Shown here one piece after another: positions 54-11,430 of a DNA stretch of 64,000 nt; positions within the stretch are counted from its first letter, which is position 1; each line of letters begins with the position of its first letter. Under the pieces are notes generated by a model, which did no database searches, was not told where the DNA came from, and worked only from the letters and a program-made list of their open reading frames with translations. This DNA comes from Chitinophagaceae bacterium (GTDB lineage Bacteria; Bacteroidota; Bacteroidia; Chitinophagales; Chitinophagaceae), in NCBI GenBank assembly GCA_004297075.1, contig SCVK01000305.1:1-64000 (forward strand), read 5' to 3'. The translations under genes and the position numbers were made by a program.

Positions 54-3050
54 ATGAACAAAACAGAAGCTCCTATCCGGATTTTAAGTATGGATGGAAA
101 GATCCGCTGGATACTTGCCTTTTCTGTCGTGGCTTTTACTTTGTTCCTACTTGTACTCTTACAACAGAAAAACAAACAGGATTCTTCACGCTTATTGATA
201 GACCATACCAATCTGGTGATCCGGCAGATTGATACCATTGGACTAGTATTTACCGAAGCCGAAGCTGCTACCCGCAGTTACCTGGTTGTACATGATAGCG
301 GTTGGCAGCAGCAGGTGTCTGTTTTACATCCACTTATCAGTGCATCTGTTTCCAGGCTGCTGGAACTAACCAGAGAAAATGCTACGCAGCAAATAAATGT
401 ATTAAAGCTACAGGACTGGTGTTCGCAAAAAGAAAGATTTCAAAAGAAACTACTGTCGCAGGAATTTAGCGCCGAGTCAATTGCCCGAATGATCCGCCCC
501 AATGGAGAGGGCCCTCTTATCAGCCGTACGGTTAAACAACTGCTTCGAAAACTCAGGGATGTAGAGGAACAATTATTGGCACAGCGGATGGCGCTGAACG
601 AAGAGAGTTACAAAACAAGTATTTATACGGCTTTTGCCGGAGGGGTTTTTGCCATCTTACTGGTATTGGCCATCCTCTCCCGCCTGAAGCTGGATATTAA
701 TCTTCGCAAAAAAGCCGAAGTGGAACTGGCCAGTAATGAAGAAAAATACAGAAAGCTGATCGAGAATGCAGGGGCCGTGATGTATACTACCGATGCAGAA
801 GGTAATATCAGTTTTGCCAATAACCGCATTACCGAATTAACCGGTTATACGGTTCACGAATTAAACGGCAAACATTTTTCTGTTTTGCTGGAACCTGGAT
901 GGATAGAGAAAGCGGTTTCCTTTTACCAGGATCAATTTCAAAAAGCCATACCGGCCAGTTATCTCGAATTGCAGATCAAAACAAAATCGGGTGAGTGTAA
1001 ATGGGTAGAGCAGACGGCTCAGTTATTGATAGATGAGGGACAGATCCAGGGTTTTCAGTGTATGGTAAAAGATATTACTGAGCAGAAACTGGTGCAACAG
1101 GAGCTGGACGAATCAGAAGCCAGGAGAAAAGAAAATGAATACCGGCTGAATGCCATTCTCGATAATACCAATACACTCATCTTCATCAAAGACCTGGATT
1201 TCAGGTATCTGGTGGTGAACAGGCGGTTCAAAGAAGTGTTTGAGCTGACGGATGAAATGGTACTCAATAAAAAAGACCACGACTTTAATCCGAAAGCGCT
1301 GGCAGATCATTACCTCGAAATAGACAAACAGGTAATTGCCACCGGCAAAGCCGTTCAGATAGAAGAAGCACTGGACACACCGGAAGGAAAAAGAAATTTT
1401 CTGGTAGCAAAATTTCCATTGTTCGACGACAGTCAGCAGCTGTTTGGTATCAGTGGTATCGCTACCGACATTACAGAGTCTGTTGAAAACCGCCAGCAAT
1501 TGATGGTGGCACTGAAAAAAGCAGAAACGGCCCAGCAGATCCAGGAACAGTTTCTGGCCAATATGAGCCACGAGATCCGCACCCCCATGAACGGCATACA
1601 GGGTATGACGAGGCTGCTCATGGAAACCAGCTTATCGGAAGAGCAGAAACGTTTTACCAATATCATCAACCGATCACTGAATAACCTGGTGGTGATCGTG
1701 AATAATGTACTGGATTATTCCAACCTCAAAGCCGGTAAACTTACGCTGGACAGTTTTGCGTTTGATGTATCCGAAACAATGGAAGAGCTGAGAAAACATT
1801 TTGAACATGCACTCGGCAACAAAAAACTAACATTTACCATCCAGCTGCTGGAAGGAACGCCCCGTTTTGTAAAGGGAGATGCCTTCCGGTTAAAACAGGT
1901 GCTCACCAATCTGATAGGCAATGCCATCAAGTTTACCAATGAAGGATCCATAGAACTGGTTATCCGTGTAAAAGAACAGGATGAAAAGATCTCACGCCTT
2001 TCTTTTGCTTTGCGCGATACCGGCATAGGCATTGCCAAAGACAAGCTGGAAACCATTTTTGAAAGTTTTGCGCAGGGAGATAAAAAAATAGCCAGTGGCT
2101 ATGGTGGTGCAGGTCTGGGACTTACCATCAGCAAGGGATTGATTGAACTGCAGGGTGGACAGATCTCTGTTATCAGCGAACAGGGCACCGGGGCCACATT
2201 CCTCTTCGACATACCTTTTGGCAGGGCGCACAGTAAAGATGTAGTGGCTTCGCAGGTAGATTTTGCTTCGAAGCTGGCTGGTAAAAGAATTTTAGTAGTA
2301 GAAGATAATATTGTGAACCAGCGCCTGATCGATTTTGTTTTAAAGAAAATGAGCATCACGGCCGATATTGCTGATAACGGGCAGCTGGCCATAGAGAAAT
2401 GCCAGAAGAACCCGCCGTACGATCTGATTATTATGGACCTGCAGATGCCGGTGATGGATGGCTATGAAACCACCATTTACCTGCGGCAAAAAATGGGGCT
2501 CAAAACACCGATCATTGCCATGACGGCTACTGCCTTAAAAGAGGACCAGGAAAGAAGTGCCCGCGTGGGAATGAACGATTTTATGGTGAAGCCCTTCGAT
2601 TTTAATGACCTGTATGCCCGAATGATCCGTTTATTGTTCCATGTAACCATACAGCAGGAGCTGGTACAGACAGAACAGGAACCCCCCGAAAAAGGCTATG
2701 ACCTTGCCTTGCTCGAAGAACTGGAGGATCCCAGCTATGTACTGGAAGTACTGGGCTTTTTTCTGGAACATGCCCCGGCAGATATCAAAGAGTTAAGGGT
2801 GCTGGTGCTGGAGAATAACCGCGATGCACTCTCAAAAAAAGCACATAAGCTGAAAGGAGCATCCGGTATGTTAAAGGCAGAAAAATTACAGGGTTTGCTG
2901 GCTGGTATAGAACTCGGTGCTAAAAAAGACAAACCGATGGAAGAACTGGCGAAAGATGTAACCGAAATACAGAAACTGTTTTCAGAACTTGAAAAAGCCC
3001 TGCAAAAGGAAGTGGCACAACTGAAAAAACAGGTGGCCAAAGGCAGCTAA
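54..3050 (+). CDS. Hybrid sensor histidine kinase/response regulator (CHASE3-like sensor, PAS repeats, HisKA, HATPase, REC, Hpt)
   Basis: 998 aa ORF; N-terminal TM pair, PAS segments, H-box 'FLANMSHEIRTPMNGI', 'DTGIGI' and 'GGAGLGLTISKGL' ATPase motifs, REC 'DLIIMDLQMPVMDGYE', C-terminal Hpt 'KKAHKLKGASGML'. Confidence 0.95.
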   Translation: MNKTEAPIRILSMDGKIRWILAFSVVAFTLFLLVLLQQKNKQDSSRLLIDHTNLVIRQIDTIGLVFTEAEAATRSYLVVHDSGWQQQVSVLHPLISASVSRLLELTRENATQQINVLKLQDWCSQKERFQKKLLSQEFSAESIARMIRPNGEGPLISRTVKQLLRKLRDVEEQLLAQRMALNEESYKTSIYTAFAGGVFAILLVLAILSRLKLDINLRKKAEVELASNEEKYRKLIENAGAVMYTTDAEGNISFANNRITELTGYTVHELNGKHFSVLLEPGWIEKAVSFYQDQFQKAIPASYLELQIKTKSGECKWVEQTAQLLIDEGQIQGFQCMVKDITEQKLVQQELDESEARRKENEYRLNAILDNTNTLIFIKDLDFRYLVVNRRFKEVFELTDEMVLNKKDHDFNPKALADHYLEIDKQVIATGKAVQIEEALDTPEGKRNFLVAKFPLFDDSQQLFGISGIATDITESVENRQQLMVALKKAETAQQIQEQFLANMSHEIRTPMNGIQGMTRLLMETSLSEEQKRFTNIINRSLNNLVVIVNNVLDYSNLKAGKLTLDSFAFDVSETMEELRKHFEHALGNKKLTFTIQLLEGTPRFVKGDAFRLKQVLTNLIGNAIKFTNEGSIELVIRVKEQDEKISRLSFALRDTGIGIAKDKLETIFESFAQGDKKIASGYGGAGLGLTISKGLIELQGGQISVISEQGTGATFLFDIPFGRAHSKDVVASQVDFASKLAGKRILVVEDNIVNQRLIDFVLKKMSITADIADNGQLAIEKCQKNPPYDLIIMDLQMPVMDGYETTIYLRQKMGLKTPIIAMTATALKEDQERSARVGMNDFMVKPFDFNDLYARMIRLLFHVTIQQELVQTEQEPPEKGYDLALLEELEDPSYVLEVLGFFLEHAPADIKELRVLVLENNRDALSKKAHKLKGASGMLKAEKLQGLLAGIELGAKKDKPMEELAKDVTEIQKLFSELEKALQKEVAQLKKQVAKGS

Positions 3051-3086: not shown

Positions 3087-3455
3087 ATGAAGATTCTGGT
3101 AGCAGAAGATGAACCGATGTTATTGAAAACCATTGAACTCAAACTCAAAAAAGAGGGCTACGAAGTCATTGTAACCGCTGATGGCAGGCAGGCAGCAGAG
3201 CAGATCGAATCGGCCAATCCGGATATGGTAATCACAGATATTATGATGCCTTATGTATCGGGTCTGGAATTGATTAATTTAATAAGACAGAAGCTGAACC
3301 GAAAAACACCCGTTATCATACTCTCGGCCATGGAACAGGAGAAAGTGGTAATGGAAGCTTTTGAACTGGGTGCTGATGATTATATCACCAAACCCTTTAG
3401 TTTAAATGAACTGGTTATCCGTGTAAAAAGATTGGTAGCCCGCACAAAAAGCTAA
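3087..3455 (+). CDS. Single-domain response regulator (CheY-like)
   Basis: 122 aa; 'VAEDEPML', 'PDMVITDIMMPYVSG', 'GADDYITKPF'. Confidence 0.93.
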   Translation: MKILVAEDEPMLLKTIELKLKKEGYEVIVTADGRQAAEQIESANPDMVITDIMMPYVSGLELINLIRQKLNRKTPVIILSAMEQEKVVMEAFELGADDYITKPFSLNELVIRVKRLVARTKS

Positions 3456-3493: not shown

Positions 3494-5287
3494 GTGTGCA
3501 TGATCCGTATCGCAAAATGGAGAACCCTCGTTACCCTACTCTTCCCCTTGTTGATGGGTAATGCACTGCATGCACAGGATACCACCAGTGCTGATGGTTT
3601 ACTGGTAGCGGCCCGTAAGGCGGCATTCGATGAAAACAATTATTCCAAAGCAAAAGCCTATCTATACAAAGCCCTGCGACTCAGTCCTGACTATGCAGAT
3701 ATCCGGATCTTCCTGGGAAGGATCCATACCTGGACCAAAAACTACGATAGCGGAAGGATCTGCTTTCAACAGGTGCTGGCTGCAAAGCCTGATTACGAAG
3801 ACGCCAATATTGCTTATGCCGATCTCGAATATTTCAGCGATCATTACGAACGTTCGCTGGAGATCTGCCGTACCGGCTTAAAGAACAATCCCGGTTCAGA
3901 AGCGCTTATGTTCAGAGAAGCCAAAACCCTGAATGCACTTTCCCGTACAGAAGAAGCCGATCGGGTTTTACAGAAATTGCTGCTGCTGAATCCCGCCAAT
4001 AAAGAAGCACTGGACCTTACCAAAGCCATGCGCGAAGCCAAACAAACCGCCAAACCGGATAGTATTATCCTTGTAATCAAAGAGGAAAATATTGTTAACC
4101 AGGACAGCCTCTCGGCAGACGGCTTATTGGTACTGGCCCGCAAAGCCGCTTTTGATGATAACAATTATGAACTCGCAAAATACCGCCTGTACAAGGCCTT
4201 GCATATCAGTCCGGGTTATGCGGATATCAAAATTTTTCTCGGAAGAATACATACCTGGACAAAATCGTATGATAGTGCCCGGTATTATTTTAATGGTGTA
4301 TTAAAGAGAACTCCTGATTATGAAGATGCCTCTGTTGCATGGATAGACCTGGAATACTGGAACGATGATTATACAAAAGCCCTTGCTATTACAGAAGATG
4401 CATTGAAATATCATCCTGAATCAGAAAACCTCTGGGTAAGAAAAGCCAAAGTATTAAATGCCGCCCGCCGTTATACAGAAGCGCAAGTGGCGGTTGACCG
4501 CGCATTACGCATTAATCACAATAACAGCGAAGCCCGTTCGTTAGCCAACCGGATCAAAGAATCTTCCTATAAGAACAAGATCGGGTTAAGTTATGATTAT
4601 GTGTATTTCGACAAACAATTTGCGGATCCCTGGCATCTCGCCAGTATTGATTACACACGCACCACAGGTATTGGTTCGGTTACGGGCCGGGTTAATTTTG
4701 CCAACCGTTTTAAAGAGAATGGAGTGCAATATGAGCTGGAAGCCTATCCGCGTATATCAAATACCTTTTACTCGTATGTAAGCCTTGGTTTCTCGGATAA
4801 TATAGGGGTGTTCCCCAATTGGCGTGGCGGTTTTTCGCTCTATGCCAACCTGCCCAAAAGTTTTGAGGGAGAACTGGGATTCCGTTACCTTAAATTTTCC
4901 GGCGATCCTACCTGGATTTATACCGCATACCTCGGTAAATATTACAAGAGCTGGTTATTTGGTGTAAGAACCTATCTCACACCCAGTACTTTTACCAGTA
5001 CCGTTTCCAGTTCTTACAATGCATCGGCCAGGTATTATTTTGCTACAGCAGATGATATGATCGGGTTCAATGTGGGTTATGGTATTTCTCCCGACGACCG
5101 TTTAAACTCCATCCAGCTGGATGGTTCTATCCGTTTGGTATCCTATAAAGCAGGGCTCAGTTTTAAAAAGAAGGTTTCCCGTTTCAGTGTCATCAGCATC
5201 GATGGCAGCTGGTTTAACCAGGAGTACCGTCCGCAGGAAAAGGGCAATCAATACCAAATCAGTATAGGATGGCTACGCCGTTTTTAA
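3494..5287 (+). CDS. TPR-repeat protein with C-terminal YaiO-like outer-membrane beta-barrel
   Basis: Signal peptide, two copies of a TPR block, C-terminal aromatic-rich beta-barrel ending in '...ISIGWLRRF'. Confidence 0.8.
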   Translation: MCMIRIAKWRTLVTLLFPLLMGNALHAQDTTSADGLLVAARKAAFDENNYSKAKAYLYKALRLSPDYADIRIFLGRIHTWTKNYDSGRICFQQVLAAKPDYEDANIAYADLEYFSDHYERSLEICRTGLKNNPGSEALMFREAKTLNALSRTEEADRVLQKLLLLNPANKEALDLTKAMREAKQTAKPDSIILVIKEENIVNQDSLSADGLLVLARKAAFDDNNYELAKYRLYKALHISPGYADIKIFLGRIHTWTKSYDSARYYFNGVLKRTPDYEDASVAWIDLEYWNDDYTKALAITEDALKYHPESENLWVRKAKVLNAARRYTEAQVAVDRALRINHNNSEARSLANRIKESSYKNKIGLSYDYVYFDKQFADPWHLASIDYTRTTGIGSVTGRVNFANRFKENGVQYELEAYPRISNTFYSYVSLGFSDNIGVFPNWRGGFSLYANLPKSFEGELGFRYLKFSGDPTWIYTAYLGKYYKSWLFGVRTYLTPSTFTSTVSSSYNASARYYFATADDMIGFNVGYGISPDDRLNSIQLDGSIRLVSYKAGLSFKKKVSRFSVISIDGSWFNQEYRPQEKGNQYQISIGWLRRF

Positions 5288-6456
5288 AAGTCAGCATATC
5301 CGGTATTCTGCGCACCCTGCTGCTGTTGTTGTTGCTAACGCCTTTCTGGTTATGGCTCGCCTGGTTACTCACAGAAAAAAGAGTGCTGGTAGTAGCCATC
5401 ATCGATAAAACGGTGTTAACCACCAAGGGACAGGAACATATTTCTCTTAACTGGGTATTGAACCAGGAAAAATTTTCCAAAAAAAATACAGAACTCTATA
5501 ACCGCGAAAAAGACTATTTCGGTTTTTTCCCGCTGGATAATAATAAATACCAGCTAAAGGGTCTGGAACGTTTCTCCAACAACAGGCTGCAGCAGTTAAG
5601 TCGTGATGTAGATATTGCCTACCTAACAGATACTTACGGAATCTATAACAACGAATGGTATCACGAGGGCGATGACAAAGCCCGCTCAGGAATGGTATAT
5701 GGCGGTATGAGCCGGCAGGATCTGTATTTTATTCAGCAGATGCAGGCTACACACAAACTCATCATCACAGAATTTAACTGCCTGGCCTCACCAACCGATT
5801 CTGCTGTAAGAGCGGGATTTGAAAAAACCTTTGGTATCAAATGGACAAAATGGATTGGCCGTTATTTTGATTCTTTTGATACAAGCCGCAACAAAGAATT
5901 GCCGCGCTGGCTGGTTGATCTTTATAAAAAGCAACACAAAGGAAAATGGCCTTTCAACAAAGGCGGGATTGCTTTTGTGAATTCAGATGACAGGATCCTG
6001 ATTCTGGAAGCGGGCACCCACTTACTCCAGCCATTTCCGCAGATTATTTCGGGCAGGGAGGCGCAGCAACATTATGGATTACCGGCCACCATTCATTATT
6101 CATTCTGGTTTGATGTAATAATACCGGATAAACGGCTGAACCAGGAGATCTCCCAATTCAAAATTGATGTGAATGATGCTGGAAAATATGAAATGACGAA
6201 ATATGGCTTATCAACGGTTTTCCCGGCTATAACAGCACATGTTAACAGTGATTACCGTTTCTTTTATTTCTCTGCAGATTTTGCCGACAATCCAATCCGG
6301 TTAACGTCTTCCTATTTTCGGGGAATGCCGCACTTTAAATCCTTTCTGTATAACCGGCATGACCCACTGGACCGGAATGGTTTTTTCTGGAATGTATACC
6401 AGCCGCTGGTGACGACTATCCTGAATGATTATTATAAAACCGGCCTGCACCATTAA
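5269..6456 (+). CDS. Membrane-anchored protein of unknown function
   Basis: 395 aa ORF with one N-terminal TM; starts inside the 3' end of the YaiO-like gene (19 bp overlap). Confidence 0.75.
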   Translation: MATPFLKVSISGILRTLLLLLLLTPFWLWLAWLLTEKRVLVVAIIDKTVLTTKGQEHISLNWVLNQEKFSKKNTELYNREKDYFGFFPLDNNKYQLKGLERFSNNRLQQLSRDVDIAYLTDTYGIYNNEWYHEGDDKARSGMVYGGMSRQDLYFIQQMQATHKLIITEFNCLASPTDSAVRAGFEKTFGIKWTKWIGRYFDSFDTSRNKELPRWLVDLYKKQHKGKWPFNKGGIAFVNSDDRILILEAGTHLLQPFPQIISGREAQQHYGLPATIHYSFWFDVIIPDKRLNQEISQFKIDVNDAGKYEMTKYGLSTVFPAITAHVNSDYRFFYFSADFADNPIRLTSSYFRGMPHFKSFLYNRHDPLDRNGFFWNVYQPLVTTILNDYYKTGLHH

Positions 6457-9400
6457 CGGGGCAGATACTTTCGCAGAAGGCTGTCCGGAACCACTTTCCG
6501 GCTTTTTAAAAAGCGTTCGTTTTTTTCTTTGAACCTGTTAAATGCTGCCCGTAGTTCATTCTTTTTAGCTTCATTACCATCGGGTTCAAGATCCATATTG
6601 CTACTGATCGTGTAAAGATCATTGCCATTCAGCAGGTGGTCGCCCATCACAAAATCAATCAGGTCGGTTTTTGTCTGCATAATAGGATACGCATGAATAT
6701 TCCTGAACTGCCTCACGGTATCCAGTCCACTACCCATCCAGGCTACTGTATCCGGTAGCTGCAGGTGATAACTTTTTTTCAGCCAGGCCAGCAGGCTGGG
6801 AGCAATATCAAAATGCGTTGATACGGATGAAATCTTAGCCACCCTTGCTAATCGGGGTGAGTATACAAGCAGGGGCACATGGTAACGGTCTATTTTGGTG
6901 CTCATTGGTATTTCCGGCATGCGGTGATCTCCGGTAATGAAAAACACAGTGTTCGCAAAATCCGGTCTTCTCTTGTACTGATCCATAAAATCTCTGACGG
7001 CGTCATCGGTATACAGAATACTGGCATATTGTTTATTATACCTTCTGCTCTCTTTTTTTTGTGTTTCAGACATACCCAGTTCAATCATCCGGTTTTCCAC
7101 TCTGGCCAGGTATCTCTCCTGCTCGTTGATCTGAAACGGACTATGTGTTGAAACCGTTAACACCAAAGAAAAATAGGGCTGGCCGGTAACTTTCTGTGTG
7201 TTTAAAAAACGCCTGAACAGTTCTTTATCGCCATAGCCCCATGAAAAACCGTTCTGTGCAGGCATTTTGGTGTATCCCTGCGGAAAGTTTTTTTCGTCAT
7301 TCAGTTCATCAATCGCATTTTTTTTCAGGAAAATATCCATGTTGTCGAAATGCGAATCGCCACCGTAATAAAAAGAGGTTTTATACCCGTTATGTTTCAG
7401 CAGGTTCAGTAGAGATAAATGGGGAGGCATTTCCTCTCCCAGTTCAGAAAACCCGTTTCTGGCAAAAGGCATGGATGAAAGCACAGAGGGCAGGGCCGCA
7501 AAAGTTCTTCCCCCTTCGCTCAGCATATTTTCCCAGTACAGGCTATGCTGCGATAGGGAATCAATAAACGGTGTAAAGTTTCCTAGATAAGCACCTTTAT
7601 TGGTAAAAGCCCTACCCAACCCTTCTACCAGCAGAATTACGATATTGGGGGGTGTTTCTGCCGGGATAAAATAGGGCGATAAAACATCTTTTGAACTATC
7701 TATACTGTGCAGAAATGGATAGTTTTTTTCATCCACATAGTTGTATCCAAACTGTTTTGCATCAGCCGAACTGATGGCATAATCGCCTGAATAGCGATCT
7801 GAATAAATATCTTCTTCAGGTGCCTGCGGAAAGAAATGTTCATAAGAAGCCTGGAAAAAATGCTGCGACTTATTCAGTGAAATATTATTACTATGCTCTT
7901 TACCGGGCAGCCATTTTGTTATTTCTTTTGATCCATCTGTGGTTAGTACCAGTATAAATGCAAGGAAAAAAATAAATAGCGGCAGGCCTCTTAGTTTTAA
8001 TCTTTGGGGTAAATAAATAAATGCAGTACTCAGCAATGACAGCATGGCCAGCAATAACAGTATCATGGCCGGTTTTACACCGCCTGATGCACCCACAGTT
8101 TGCCGGATATCTGCGATGGAATATCCCCAGAGATCTGCCCCCAATGGCACCAGTGTTGTAATAAAATATTCTGACAGGAGTAATTGTATCAGTAACAACA
8201 TCACAGACAAAACAATAAAAACAATTTGTGCCAGTTTTTTATGCAGCAGATAACACAAAGCAAAAACCGGGTAAAAGAAAGCGCCTATTTGCAAAAAGAA
8301 AACCAGGTCTTTTGCCAAACCCATTAAAACAACTTTCCCAAACAGATCCGGTGTTCCGTGTTTGATCAGTTCATATACCAGCTCATAGCCCCTGGCCACC
8401 AGCAGTAATAATAAAAGAACGAGGGCATGGTTGATATAATACCTGAACGACCGGGTAAAAAACGTAGCCGCCCGGATAATTGCCGGGATAATGGTTCGCT
8501 GTACAATCCATACCGACTCTTTGTTCTCTTCGTGCGGAAGTGGCGGTGTAACTGGGTCTGGTATTGTGTTAGTAAGTGCCGCATCCGTAAGCTGTACCAA
8601 TGCCGGAGCAGGTTGCGGGGTAACAACTGTTTTTTTCTGTGCAAAACCCTGTCTGGTCATTTCGCCCCAGCCCTTTTTCTTTTTAATGAGATCAAGATAC
8701 CCCTTGATGGCACTCCATACCACAAAGGGATGGTAGTAAAAGGGTTCGGTCATACCTGTCAGCAACAGGCGGAGTATATCGATCCGTCTCTTATACTGGT
8801 TAAATGTGAGCACTTCCATCAAAATCGCAAAAGAGGAATAGAGGTACCCGAAACACACAATGAAAACCAGGAAAGAGAAAAAGAAATCCCAGTCAATATA
8901 TCCGAACCAGGCAAAAAAGACAAAAAAGATGATTCCCGAAAACTCAATAATGGGTGCCAATAATTCAAAAAAGAACCAGTACGGATAACTCAGCATACCC
9001 AATAAACCGTAGGAAGGATTAAAGAACATCCGCTTATGCAGCAGCAGTGTTTCGTAGGTTCCGCGGATCCAGCGATTGCGTTGGCGACCCAGGATCTTAA
9101 AAGTAGCCGGCGCTTCTGTCCAGCAGAGTGGATCGGGGATATAGGTTACCACATACTTCTCCTTCCGCTCTTCCATGTACCGGCGCATCCGTACTACCAG
9201 TTCCATATCTTCTCCTACCGTATTATGATTATACCCCCCGCATTTAATGGCAATCTCTTTATCAAAAGCACCAAATGCGCCCGAGATCAGCATTAAACCA
9301 TTCATCCGGCTCCAGGCCATTCTACCCAGAATAAAAGCCCGAATGTATTCGAGAATCTGAATACGGGGCAGATAGTCTTCGGCCAGCTTAACTTTAATCA

Positions 9401-10058
9401 ATCGCCCGTCTTCAATTACACAGGAGTTGGCAATCCGCACCACACCACCCGTGGCAATTACCCTTTTATTAGTTTGTTCCAGAAAGGGTTTCACCATTTT
9501 CAGCAAAGCATCCTGCTCCAGGATACAGTCCACATCAATACAAACGAGATAATTATTGGAAGACACGTTAATGCCTACATTCAACGCATCCGCTTTACCT
9601 CCATTCTCTTTGTCTACCACAATGAGCTTGTTATAAATGCTATTCCTGCTTTTATAAATACCCCGTATGCATTTGGTGGGAATCTGCTCGTGCACAAAGA
9701 TATCCGTCTTCTCCAGGTCATACGCAGCAATCAGCCGCTCCAGCGAATCATCCTTACTGCCATCATTGATAATGATCACTTCCATATTGGCGTAATAGAT
9801 CGAAAGAAGCGAGCGTACATTCTCTACCACTGTTTTCCCTTCGTTATACGCAGGTGCGAGTATACTTACCGATGGGGCATGCACAGAACTGGCCAGTACC
9901 CGGTAATCGGTAAAACTGTTCTTCCACATATACCGGCGCGTTTCGCCGATAGAATACAAGCCGATCAGTATATACGACAATAACAGCAGGAAGGAATACA
10001 GGAATATCCCGTAGGTAAGAAAATTAAACAGAAAAGTGGATATACTATCCCAGTTCAT
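6453..10058 (-). CDS. Fusion: processive GT2 glycosyltransferase + TM region + LtaS/sulfatase-like phosphotransferase domain
   Basis: 1201 aa; N-half GT2 motifs 'SILAPAYNEGKTV', 'VCIDVDCIL', 'GEDMELV', 'QRNRWIRG'; C-half 'NIVILLVEGLGR', 'GGRTFAALPS', 'FFITGDHRMPE'. Confidence 0.88.
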   Translation of the reverse strand: MNWDSISTFLFNFLTYGIFLYSFLLLLSYILIGLYSIGETRRYMWKNSFTDYRVLASSVHAPSVSILAPAYNEGKTVVENVRSLLSIYYANMEVIIINDGSKDDSLERLIAAYDLEKTDIFVHEQIPTKCIRGIYKSRNSIYNKLIVVDKENGGKADALNVGINVSSNNYLVCIDVDCILEQDALLKMVKPFLEQTNKRVIATGGVVRIANSCVIEDGRLIKVKLAEDYLPRIQILEYIRAFILGRMAWSRMNGLMLISGAFGAFDKEIAIKCGGYNHNTVGEDMELVVRMRRYMEERKEKYVVTYIPDPLCWTEAPATFKILGRQRNRWIRGTYETLLLHKRMFFNPSYGLLGMLSYPYWFFFELLAPIIEFSGIIFFVFFAWFGYIDWDFFFSFLVFIVCFGYLYSSFAILMEVLTFNQYKRRIDILRLLLTGMTEPFYYHPFVVWSAIKGYLDLIKKKKGWGEMTRQGFAQKKTVVTPQPAPALVQLTDAALTNTIPDPVTPPLPHEENKESVWIVQRTIIPAIIRAATFFTRSFRYYINHALVLLLLLLVARGYELVYELIKHGTPDLFGKVVLMGLAKDLVFFLQIGAFFYPVFALCYLLHKKLAQIVFIVLSVMLLLIQLLLSEYFITTLVPLGADLWGYSIADIRQTVGASGGVKPAMILLLLAMLSLLSTAFIYLPQRLKLRGLPLFIFFLAFILVLTTDGSKEITKWLPGKEHSNNISLNKSQHFFQASYEHFFPQAPEEDIYSDRYSGDYAISSADAKQFGYNYVDEKNYPFLHSIDSSKDVLSPYFIPAETPPNIVILLVEGLGRAFTNKGAYLGNFTPFIDSLSQHSLYWENMLSEGGRTFAALPSVLSSMPFARNGFSELGEEMPPHLSLLNLLKHNGYKTSFYYGGDSHFDNMDIFLKKNAIDELNDEKNFPQGYTKMPAQNGFSWGYGDKELFRRFLNTQKVTGQPYFSLVLTVSTHSPFQINEQERYLARVENRMIELGMSETQKKESRRYNKQYASILYTDDAVRDFMDQYKRRPDFANTVFFITGDHRMPEIPMSTKIDRYHVPLLVYSPRLARVAKISSVSTHFDIAPSLLAWLKKSYHLQLPDTVAWMGSGLDTVRQFRNIHAYPIMQTKTDLIDFVMGDHLLNGNDLYTISSNMDLEPDGNEAKKNELRAAFNRFKEKNERFLKSRKVVPDSLLRKYLPR

Positions 10059-11134
10059 GAGGCCGTTTTTATATGTCGGTAAATCCGCTCAAATGGTTCC
10101 GGTTGCAGGAGGCTTCTTTTTTCTATCACCGCCATCCCGCTATCCGAGATCGCCACCAGTACAAGGGCGGCTTTCAGTTTAATAGTGTCGTTTTCGTCAT
10201 CCAGTAAACTCTCTATAAAATTCGCATCTGCCTCTGTTGCCAACGAGCGCATTGCATCCAGTATATAGAGGCGGTTGATCAAAGATTCTTTGTTGAAATA
10301 ACCGAGCAATATATTAGGCGTTTCCTCATCGGCCAGTCTTACCAGTGTTTTCAACGCCTGTGTACGAACCTGGTTATCTGCATGCACCAAACATTGTATC
10401 ACATCATGCCGAACAGCAAATACCTGGTATTCATCGGCCAGTTTCAGCGCAAACACCACTACCGTAGTATTGGCAGCATGCAGCCAGGCAGGAATTTTGT
10501 CTGAGAGATCTTCTTTCTTCGGGTATAAACGTAACTGCTCCAGCAATTTCAACTGTTGCCATTCAGTCAGCGGGTAAGAGATCACATCCAGAAAACGAAG
10601 ACCGGGAAATCCCGTTAAATGAATCACACCCGTCTGTGCTTCCATCCGCACAAATTCATTGGTGCTGTTGGTGTTCTTATAAATCGTTTTCAGAATATCC
10701 TGCTGCTCCATCAGGTACAGCTCCTGTATACCCCTGGCTTTAATATGCCATCGGGTGGTATTACGCAGTTTGGCCAGCGAATCTTCTTTAAAGCCCAGCG
10801 CAACATACAGGGAAACGATATTATCCGTAACCCCACCCGAAAAATTTTTCTTACAGGAAATGAGCTCATTGATCGCAAACTGACGGGCATGTTTATTAAT
10901 GAGAATACGTTTGAAATTTCGGATCATGGTGGGCGTATCCACATCTTCTTCCATGATCACCTGTGTGATCCATTCTTCAATATATTTCCGGATACGCTGG
11001 GTATAAAAGAAATTACGTTTCTGGTTAAAGAGGTAAGCATATATCCCCACTACTACTATTGCAATGCCAATAGACAGAATCTCTGCGCCTTTTAACAACA
11101 TACTGGGCGACATATACTTTTCTATCGTATCCAT
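10055..11134 (-). CDS. Membrane-anchored HEAT-repeat protein
   Basis: N-terminal TM then helical repeats; start chosen at 'MDTIEKYMSPSM'; 4 bp overlap with the downstream GT2 fusion. Confidence 0.7.
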   Translation of the reverse strand: MDTIEKYMSPSMLLKGAEILSIGIAIVVVGIYAYLFNQKRNFFYTQRIRKYIEEWITQVIMEEDVDTPTMIRNFKRILINKHARQFAINELISCKKNFSGGVTDNIVSLYVALGFKEDSLAKLRNTTRWHIKARGIQELYLMEQQDILKTIYKNTNSTNEFVRMEAQTGVIHLTGFPGLRFLDVISYPLTEWQQLKLLEQLRLYPKKEDLSDKIPAWLHAANTTVVVFALKLADEYQVFAVRHDVIQCLVHADNQVRTQALKTLVRLADEETPNILLGYFNKESLINRLYILDAMRSLATEADANFIESLLDDENDTIKLKAALVLVAISDSGMAVIEKRSLLQPEPFERIYRHIKTAS

Positions 11135-11430
11135 TACGGCAGACCGTAACAGGCAGCTCTCCGGTATAAAAGAAAGATATGTTGTAGGGAGGTTCCAGAC
11201 CATTTCAGCTATCAGCAGTCAGAATTGCCGGTGCTTTAAAGTTAGGTTAAACCATGTGATTTTGGTTGATTTCTTATCGTCAGGGAGAACTTTTCGCTGC
11301 GCAGATAACTATTCACATTTACCGGCCGGCAGTTTGAAAATCGTTCTATCTGGAGTAGGTTTGCAAGTAGATACAGATTCTCAAAAAAAGACAGTTGCTG
11401 ACAGCGCCCCTGTCTGTAAAATAATCAACT

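Follow-up and report, generated by a model that had tools for sequence, protein, structure and literature searches.

A fused GT2 synthase and LtaS/OpgB-like phosphotransferase in a Chitinophagaceae genome, and its fused and separate relatives across Bacteroidota

The stretch of DNA examined here (the window, 64,000 nucleotides from a Chitinophagaceae bacterium) bears on its minus strand a 1201 aa open reading frame with an ATG start and zero internal stops, which a preliminary description of the sequence had reported and to which we add the strand. Its start is overlapped by 4 bases by the gene for a HEAT-repeat protein, and a convergent operon holds genes for a hybrid histidine kinase, a receiver, a TPR-YaiO barrel predicted to be the likely export porin, and a 395 aa protein. 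The features of the locus are as follows:

54..3050, plus strand: hybrid histidine kinase, CHASE3-PAS-HisKA-HATPase-REC-Hpt (Pfam)
3087..3455, plus strand: stand-alone receiver domain (Pfam, neighbourhoods)
3494..5287, plus strand: TPR and YaiO outer-membrane beta-barrel (PF19413, 3.2e-70; TIGR04390)
5269..6456, plus strand: 395 aa protein without a family name (AlphaFold2, Foldseek, co-occurrence)
6453..10058, minus strand: fused GT2 synthase and LtaS/OpgB-like phosphotransferase, 1201 aa (Pfam, phmmer, AlphaFold2, Foldseek)
6780..7649, minus strand: Sulfatase (alkaline-phosphatase-superfamily) domain, residues 804-1093 (PF00884, 4.4e-38; Foldseek)
6924..6929, minus strand: D1044-H1045, aligned with LtaS Asp475-His476, metal ligands (phmmer; conservation)
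7143..7145, minus strand: H972, invariant His within VSTHSP (conservation)
7503..7505, minus strand: T852, aligned with LtaS Thr300, the nucleophile (phmmer; conservation)
7623..7625, minus strand: E812, aligned with LtaS Glu255, a metal ligand (phmmer; conservation)
7944..8450, minus strand: second transmembrane block, about five helices, residues 537-705 (hydropathy and predicted helices)
8508..8639, minus strand: Pro/Thr/Ala-rich linker between the halves, about residues 474-517 (AlphaFold2 pLDDT < 50)
9060..9875, minus strand: GT2 catalytic domain, residues 62-333, PF13641 (Pfam; catalytic residues 100% conserved)
9069..9083, minus strand: QRNRW processivity-type motif, residues 326-330 (sequence)
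10055..11203, minus strand: HEAT-repeat protein, 382 aa, conserved upstream neighbour (Pfam HEAT_2; neighbourhoods)

Pfam scans recover both halves of the protein: Glycos_transf_2 (7.1e-19), Glyco_tranf_2_3 (5.1e-17) and Chitin_synth_2 (5.5e-9) match the N-terminal half, and Sulfatase the C-terminal one, in agreement with the domain assignments of the preliminary description. The complete GT2 half with its D,D and QRNRW signatures, claimed there, is likewise borne out: the D, DxD, ED and Q(R)xRW motifs of processive GT2 synthases of the HAS/BcsA/PgaC type are all present, and E73, D99, D175, D177, E283, D284, Q326, R327, R329 and W330 are identical throughout 58 sequences (22 fused and 36 separate relatives). 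An AlphaFold2 model built on an alignment of 40 homologues (mean pLDDT 78.7, pTM 0.48) is confident in the glycosyltransferase and membrane parts, moderate in the phosphotransferase domain and low in the linker, which is also variable and gapped among homologues; low-confidence loops at about residues 816-827 and 849-852 touch the phosphotransferase active site. The confident region adopts a GT-A fold with membrane channel helices, for which Foldseek returns hyaluronan and cellulose synthases. Among E. coli proteins, the family glycosyltransferase profile scores PgaC at 117 bits and BcsA at 27 bits, and the poly-N-acetylglucosamine synthase PgaC/IcaA is the best named match, albeit well under the threshold of its equivalog model (TIGR03937, 138 bits vs a cut-off of 422). 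No PgaB-type deacetylase was found by Pfam among the neighbouring window proteins scanned.

The second half displays the features of LtaS/OpgB-type enzymes, namely the Sulfatase fold, a Thr nucleophile, Glu/Asp/His metal ligands and a preceding multi-helix membrane block, the last of which hydropathy and helix prediction place where it had been described. The active-site residues of LtaS include Glu255, Asp475 and His476 (PMC7576196). In phmmer alignments the motifs VEGLG (from residue 811), GGRTF (849, extending into GGRTFAALPS) and TGDHRMPE (1042) fall at LtaS-type positions, as proposed earlier, with E812, T852, D1044 and H1045 aligned with Glu255, Thr300, Asp475 and His476; T852 pairs with a position occupied by Thr in 2w5q and by Ala in 2w5r. 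These four residues, together with H972, are identical in 22/22 fused homologues and nearly so in the 36 separate ones. Metal ligands and nucleophile alike are predicted to be in place, and a genuine fusion of a GT2 synthase with an alkaline-phosphatase-superfamily domain is confirmed, both domains being recognised by Pfam, by HMM comparison and by predicted structure.

Within this superfamily, OpgB scores highest among five characterised proteins from E. coli that were compared with the phosphotransferase half (62 bits, as against 13.7 for LapC, 7 for EptA and 2.2 for BcsG), although the fused protein does not reach the OpgB cut-off of NCBIfam. Membership of the BcsG or EptA clades is excluded by these scores, and no BcsG family match to the fused protein appeared in the Pfam or NCBIfam scans. 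Foldseek retrieves 3lxq, LtaP and LtaS, as well as YejM structures. Identity with the LtaS equivalog is ruled out, the half scoring 57 bits vs a cut-off of 970, and LtaS H253, W354 and R356 are replaced by L810, D905 and M907, which implies a substrate pocket different from that of LtaS. This bears on whether the glycan receives a poly(glycerol-phosphate)-like chain, built up by the enzyme in the fashion of LtaS, rather than single headgroups: LtaS and LtaP are among the enzyme's best sequence and fold matches, but the replacement of these three residues, along with the lack of any PgsA equivalog above the cut-off in the genome that holds the window (83% complete), makes such chain growth very improbable. 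It is somewhat less far-fetched, yet still quite unlikely, that the half acts as a hydrolase, a phosphatase or a regulator akin to LapC/YejM rather than a transferase. YejM shares the fold, recurs among the structural matches and has reported phosphatase activity (PMC7576196); however, its site is described with Asp268, Asn403, Arg451 and His468 (PMC7576196), unlike the LtaS-type Glu, Thr, Asp and His set kept by every one of the 22 fused members, and the LapC score lies far under that of OpgB.

With a headgroup transferase favoured, the nature of its donor may be approached from the lipid genes of the hosts. The curated PgsA model is exceeded in 1/41 genomes, and phosphatidylserine decarboxylase is present in 40/41; weak matches to divergent CDP-alcohol transferases occur in most genomes examined. 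Additionally, phosphatidylethanolamine is the major polar lipid of a described member of the Chitinophagaceae (PMC11349053). The gene content favours a phosphatidylethanolamine donor, whereas the relatedness to OpgB points to phosphoglycerol, and in balance we lean slightly towards phosphoethanolamine.

The fusion was surveyed in related genomes and in a sample of Bacteroidota. Full-length fused homologues (52-74% identity) were recovered from over a dozen further Chitinophagaceae genomes, among them the isolates Sediminibacterium ginsengisoli DSM 22335 and S. roseum, and the phylum sample adds further fused forms from three other families of the class (loci L122-L127). The recurrence of the whole 1200-residue layout in many genomes places this architecture far beyond chance. 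In other genera the synthase and phosphotransferase are encoded by separate neighbouring genes on one strand, frequently overlapping by a few bases, with intergenic gaps of -26 to +33 bases across 13 loci. On the glycosyltransferase tree the fused/separate label requires 7 changes, 6 of which are forced by well-supported branches, so the state has switched at least 6 times on this tree, a count which does not separate fusion gains from splits; the sulfatase tree requires 6 changes, with only 2 so forced. A single clade of all fused forms is rejected on the glycosyltransferase tree (p-AU 1.8e-73), and the rejection holds at 8e-7 without L040 and the distant group L125-L127. Fusion seems to have happened several times within Bacteroidota. 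The existence of both genes as separate neighbours in other genera is what might have suggested a frameshift or assembly artefact merging the two, an eventuality raised by the preliminary description; it is ruled out for practical purposes by full-length fusions in many independent assemblies, isolates included, and by the six or more state changes.

Several variants of this arrangement were observed. In one genome (G132) the fused locus is present twice, as the divergent copies L085 and L086 on two contigs. In G125, G394 and G250 the phosphotransferase gene lies several kb away from a glycosyltransferase copy or on a different contig. Within the same genus, a synthase lacking the phosphotransferase occurs at L006/L081, where the glycosyltransferase is 77% identical; its occurrence alone makes decoration look optional, as would be expected of an accessory decoration module. 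At L094:8604-11578 two tandem synthase genes of the family, also without a phosphotransferase, precede genes for a YaiO protein and a DUF4838 protein, and tandem glycosyltransferase matches recur across several genomes of the related genus (g40). C-terminal extensions are seen on some fused or separate phosphotransferases, that of L134 being recognised as TPR by Pfam. Synthase-phosphotransferase forms of about 1266 aa with such an extension are encoded at L125:7609-11409, L126:7477-11259 and L127:7903-11715; their extension is weakly similar to the TPR-YaiO protein of the window, and Pfam finds no TPR in that of L125.

The neighbourhood is conserved beyond the fused gene itself. Among the 49 glycosyltransferase loci with enough flank, a HEAT protein is present in 44/49, a receiver in 37/49, the phosphotransferase in 38/49, the 395 aa protein in 25/49 and a YaiO-barrel or TPR relative in 45/49, frequencies that are descriptive because the loci were not randomly sampled, several having been selected for holding both parts. 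The receiver gene adjoins the HEAT gene in many relatives. Judged by its predicted components, this is a conserved Bacteroidota exopolysaccharide-type locus comprising a receiver, a HEAT protein, the synthase, the LtaS/OpgB-like enzyme, a TPR-YaiO barrel and often the probably periplasmic 395 aa protein. Within the YaiO protein of the window the N-terminal TPR segment appears to be duplicated; YaiO proteins measure 595-608 aa in the window and in L033, L034 and L035, but about 420 aa in L032, L037 and L038.

The 395 aa protein has zero Pfam or NCBIfam matches, and sequence searches gave no convincing match to solved structures. It has N-terminal hydrophobic helices and is probably periplasmic and membrane-anchored. 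The model (pLDDT 85.5), which can be termed a GATase1/flavodoxin-like fold, has GATase1-like proteins and GH42 enzymes as structural neighbours, with the deacetylase Agd3 a weaker one; given the low TM-scores, these resemblances are only a hint at the level of the fold. No Cys is among the invariant columns of its alignment, which makes amidotransferase activity unlikely. A Metabacillus homologue makes up the N-terminal portion of a larger protein of 1103 aa (L048:9346-12657), whose gene adjoins a related GT2 gene.

These observations are compatible with a bifunctional inner-membrane enzyme of a synthase-dependent exopolysaccharide system, which would build a glycan and add a phospholipid headgroup to it before export; on present evidence we regard this as probable. 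The N-terminal half would polymerise a glycan, probably GlcNAc-containing, from a nucleotide sugar on the cytoplasmic side and feed the chain through its own transmembrane helices. The second, five-helix membrane block would be reached via a flexible linker in the cytoplasm and would bear a periplasmic LtaS/OpgB-type metalloenzyme. A membrane phospholipid would donate phosphoethanolamine or phosphoglycerol to T852 of this enzyme, which would pass the group to the emerging glycan, ahead of the polymer's exit via the neighbouring TPR-YaiO porin. Both activities, the topology, their coupling, the donor and the synthase's own product as acceptor are what we infer from the fusion, the conserved catalytic residues and the operon context. 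The earlier interpretation, in which a single polypeptide makes a glycan polymer and attaches phosphoglycerol or phosphoethanolamine to it, is supported to this extent.

Phosphoethanolamine cellulose is the best-known pairing of a synthase with a phosphoform transferase, and such pairing is already known; what is real and recurrent here is its fused form, the chemistry being predicted. In E. coli the phosphoethanolamine transferase BcsG is anchored in the membrane, and three copies of it are bound by BcsA (PMC11379886). Both systems combine a processive GT2 synthase with an alkaline-phosphatase-superfamily transferase, anchored in the membrane by five transmembrane helices, and with a TPR outer-membrane porin (for E. 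coli, PMC11379886). However, BcsA-BcsG comprises two polypeptides in a 1:3 ratio as opposed to one chain, the present transferase belongs to the OpgB/LtaS rather than the BcsG clade, the glycosyltransferase is nearer to PgaC than to BcsA, and a HEAT protein and receiver stand where Bcs has BcsB and other subunits. OpgB (MdoB, phosphoglycerol transferase I) too decorates a glycan, but it transfers phosphoglycerol and is unfused to a synthase. LtaS and LtaP share the fold, nucleophile, metal ligands and N-terminal membrane block, although LtaS polymerises glycerol phosphate. The operon, the repeated fusion and the BcsA-BcsG precedent together strengthen the reading as glycan decoration. The acceptor could nevertheless be another envelope glycan or lipid: enzymes of the LtaS/OpgB type use varied acceptors, and phosphotransferase relatives occur as separate proteins distant from the synthase, so that the half might act on LPS, capsule or a lipid with the fusion merely co-regulating or co-localising the two activities. 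The recurrent fusion and tight adjacency with the synthase, and the added TPR domain or TPR-YaiO-like sequence of some relatives, render this unlikely, though it is the foremost of the alternatives.

No GT2-sulfatase fusion or HEAT/YaiO exopolysaccharide system was found described in the open literature searched, which is weak evidence. It is conceivable, and offered here tentatively, that a widespread undescribed exopolysaccharide system of Bacteroidota, comprising the receiver, HEAT protein, PgaC-like synthase, TPR-YaiO porin and GATase-like subunit, makes a phosphoethanolamine-bearing non-cellulose polymer and repeatedly packs synthesis, decoration and perhaps part of export into one chain. 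If the proposal is true, the fused protein would offer a single-gene system for testing the coupling of synthesis and decoration and would point to phospho-decorated matrix polymers in Bacteroidota, and the covalent, recurrently evolved pairing, in another phylum and with a transferase of a different clade, would show decoration at translocation to be a general design.
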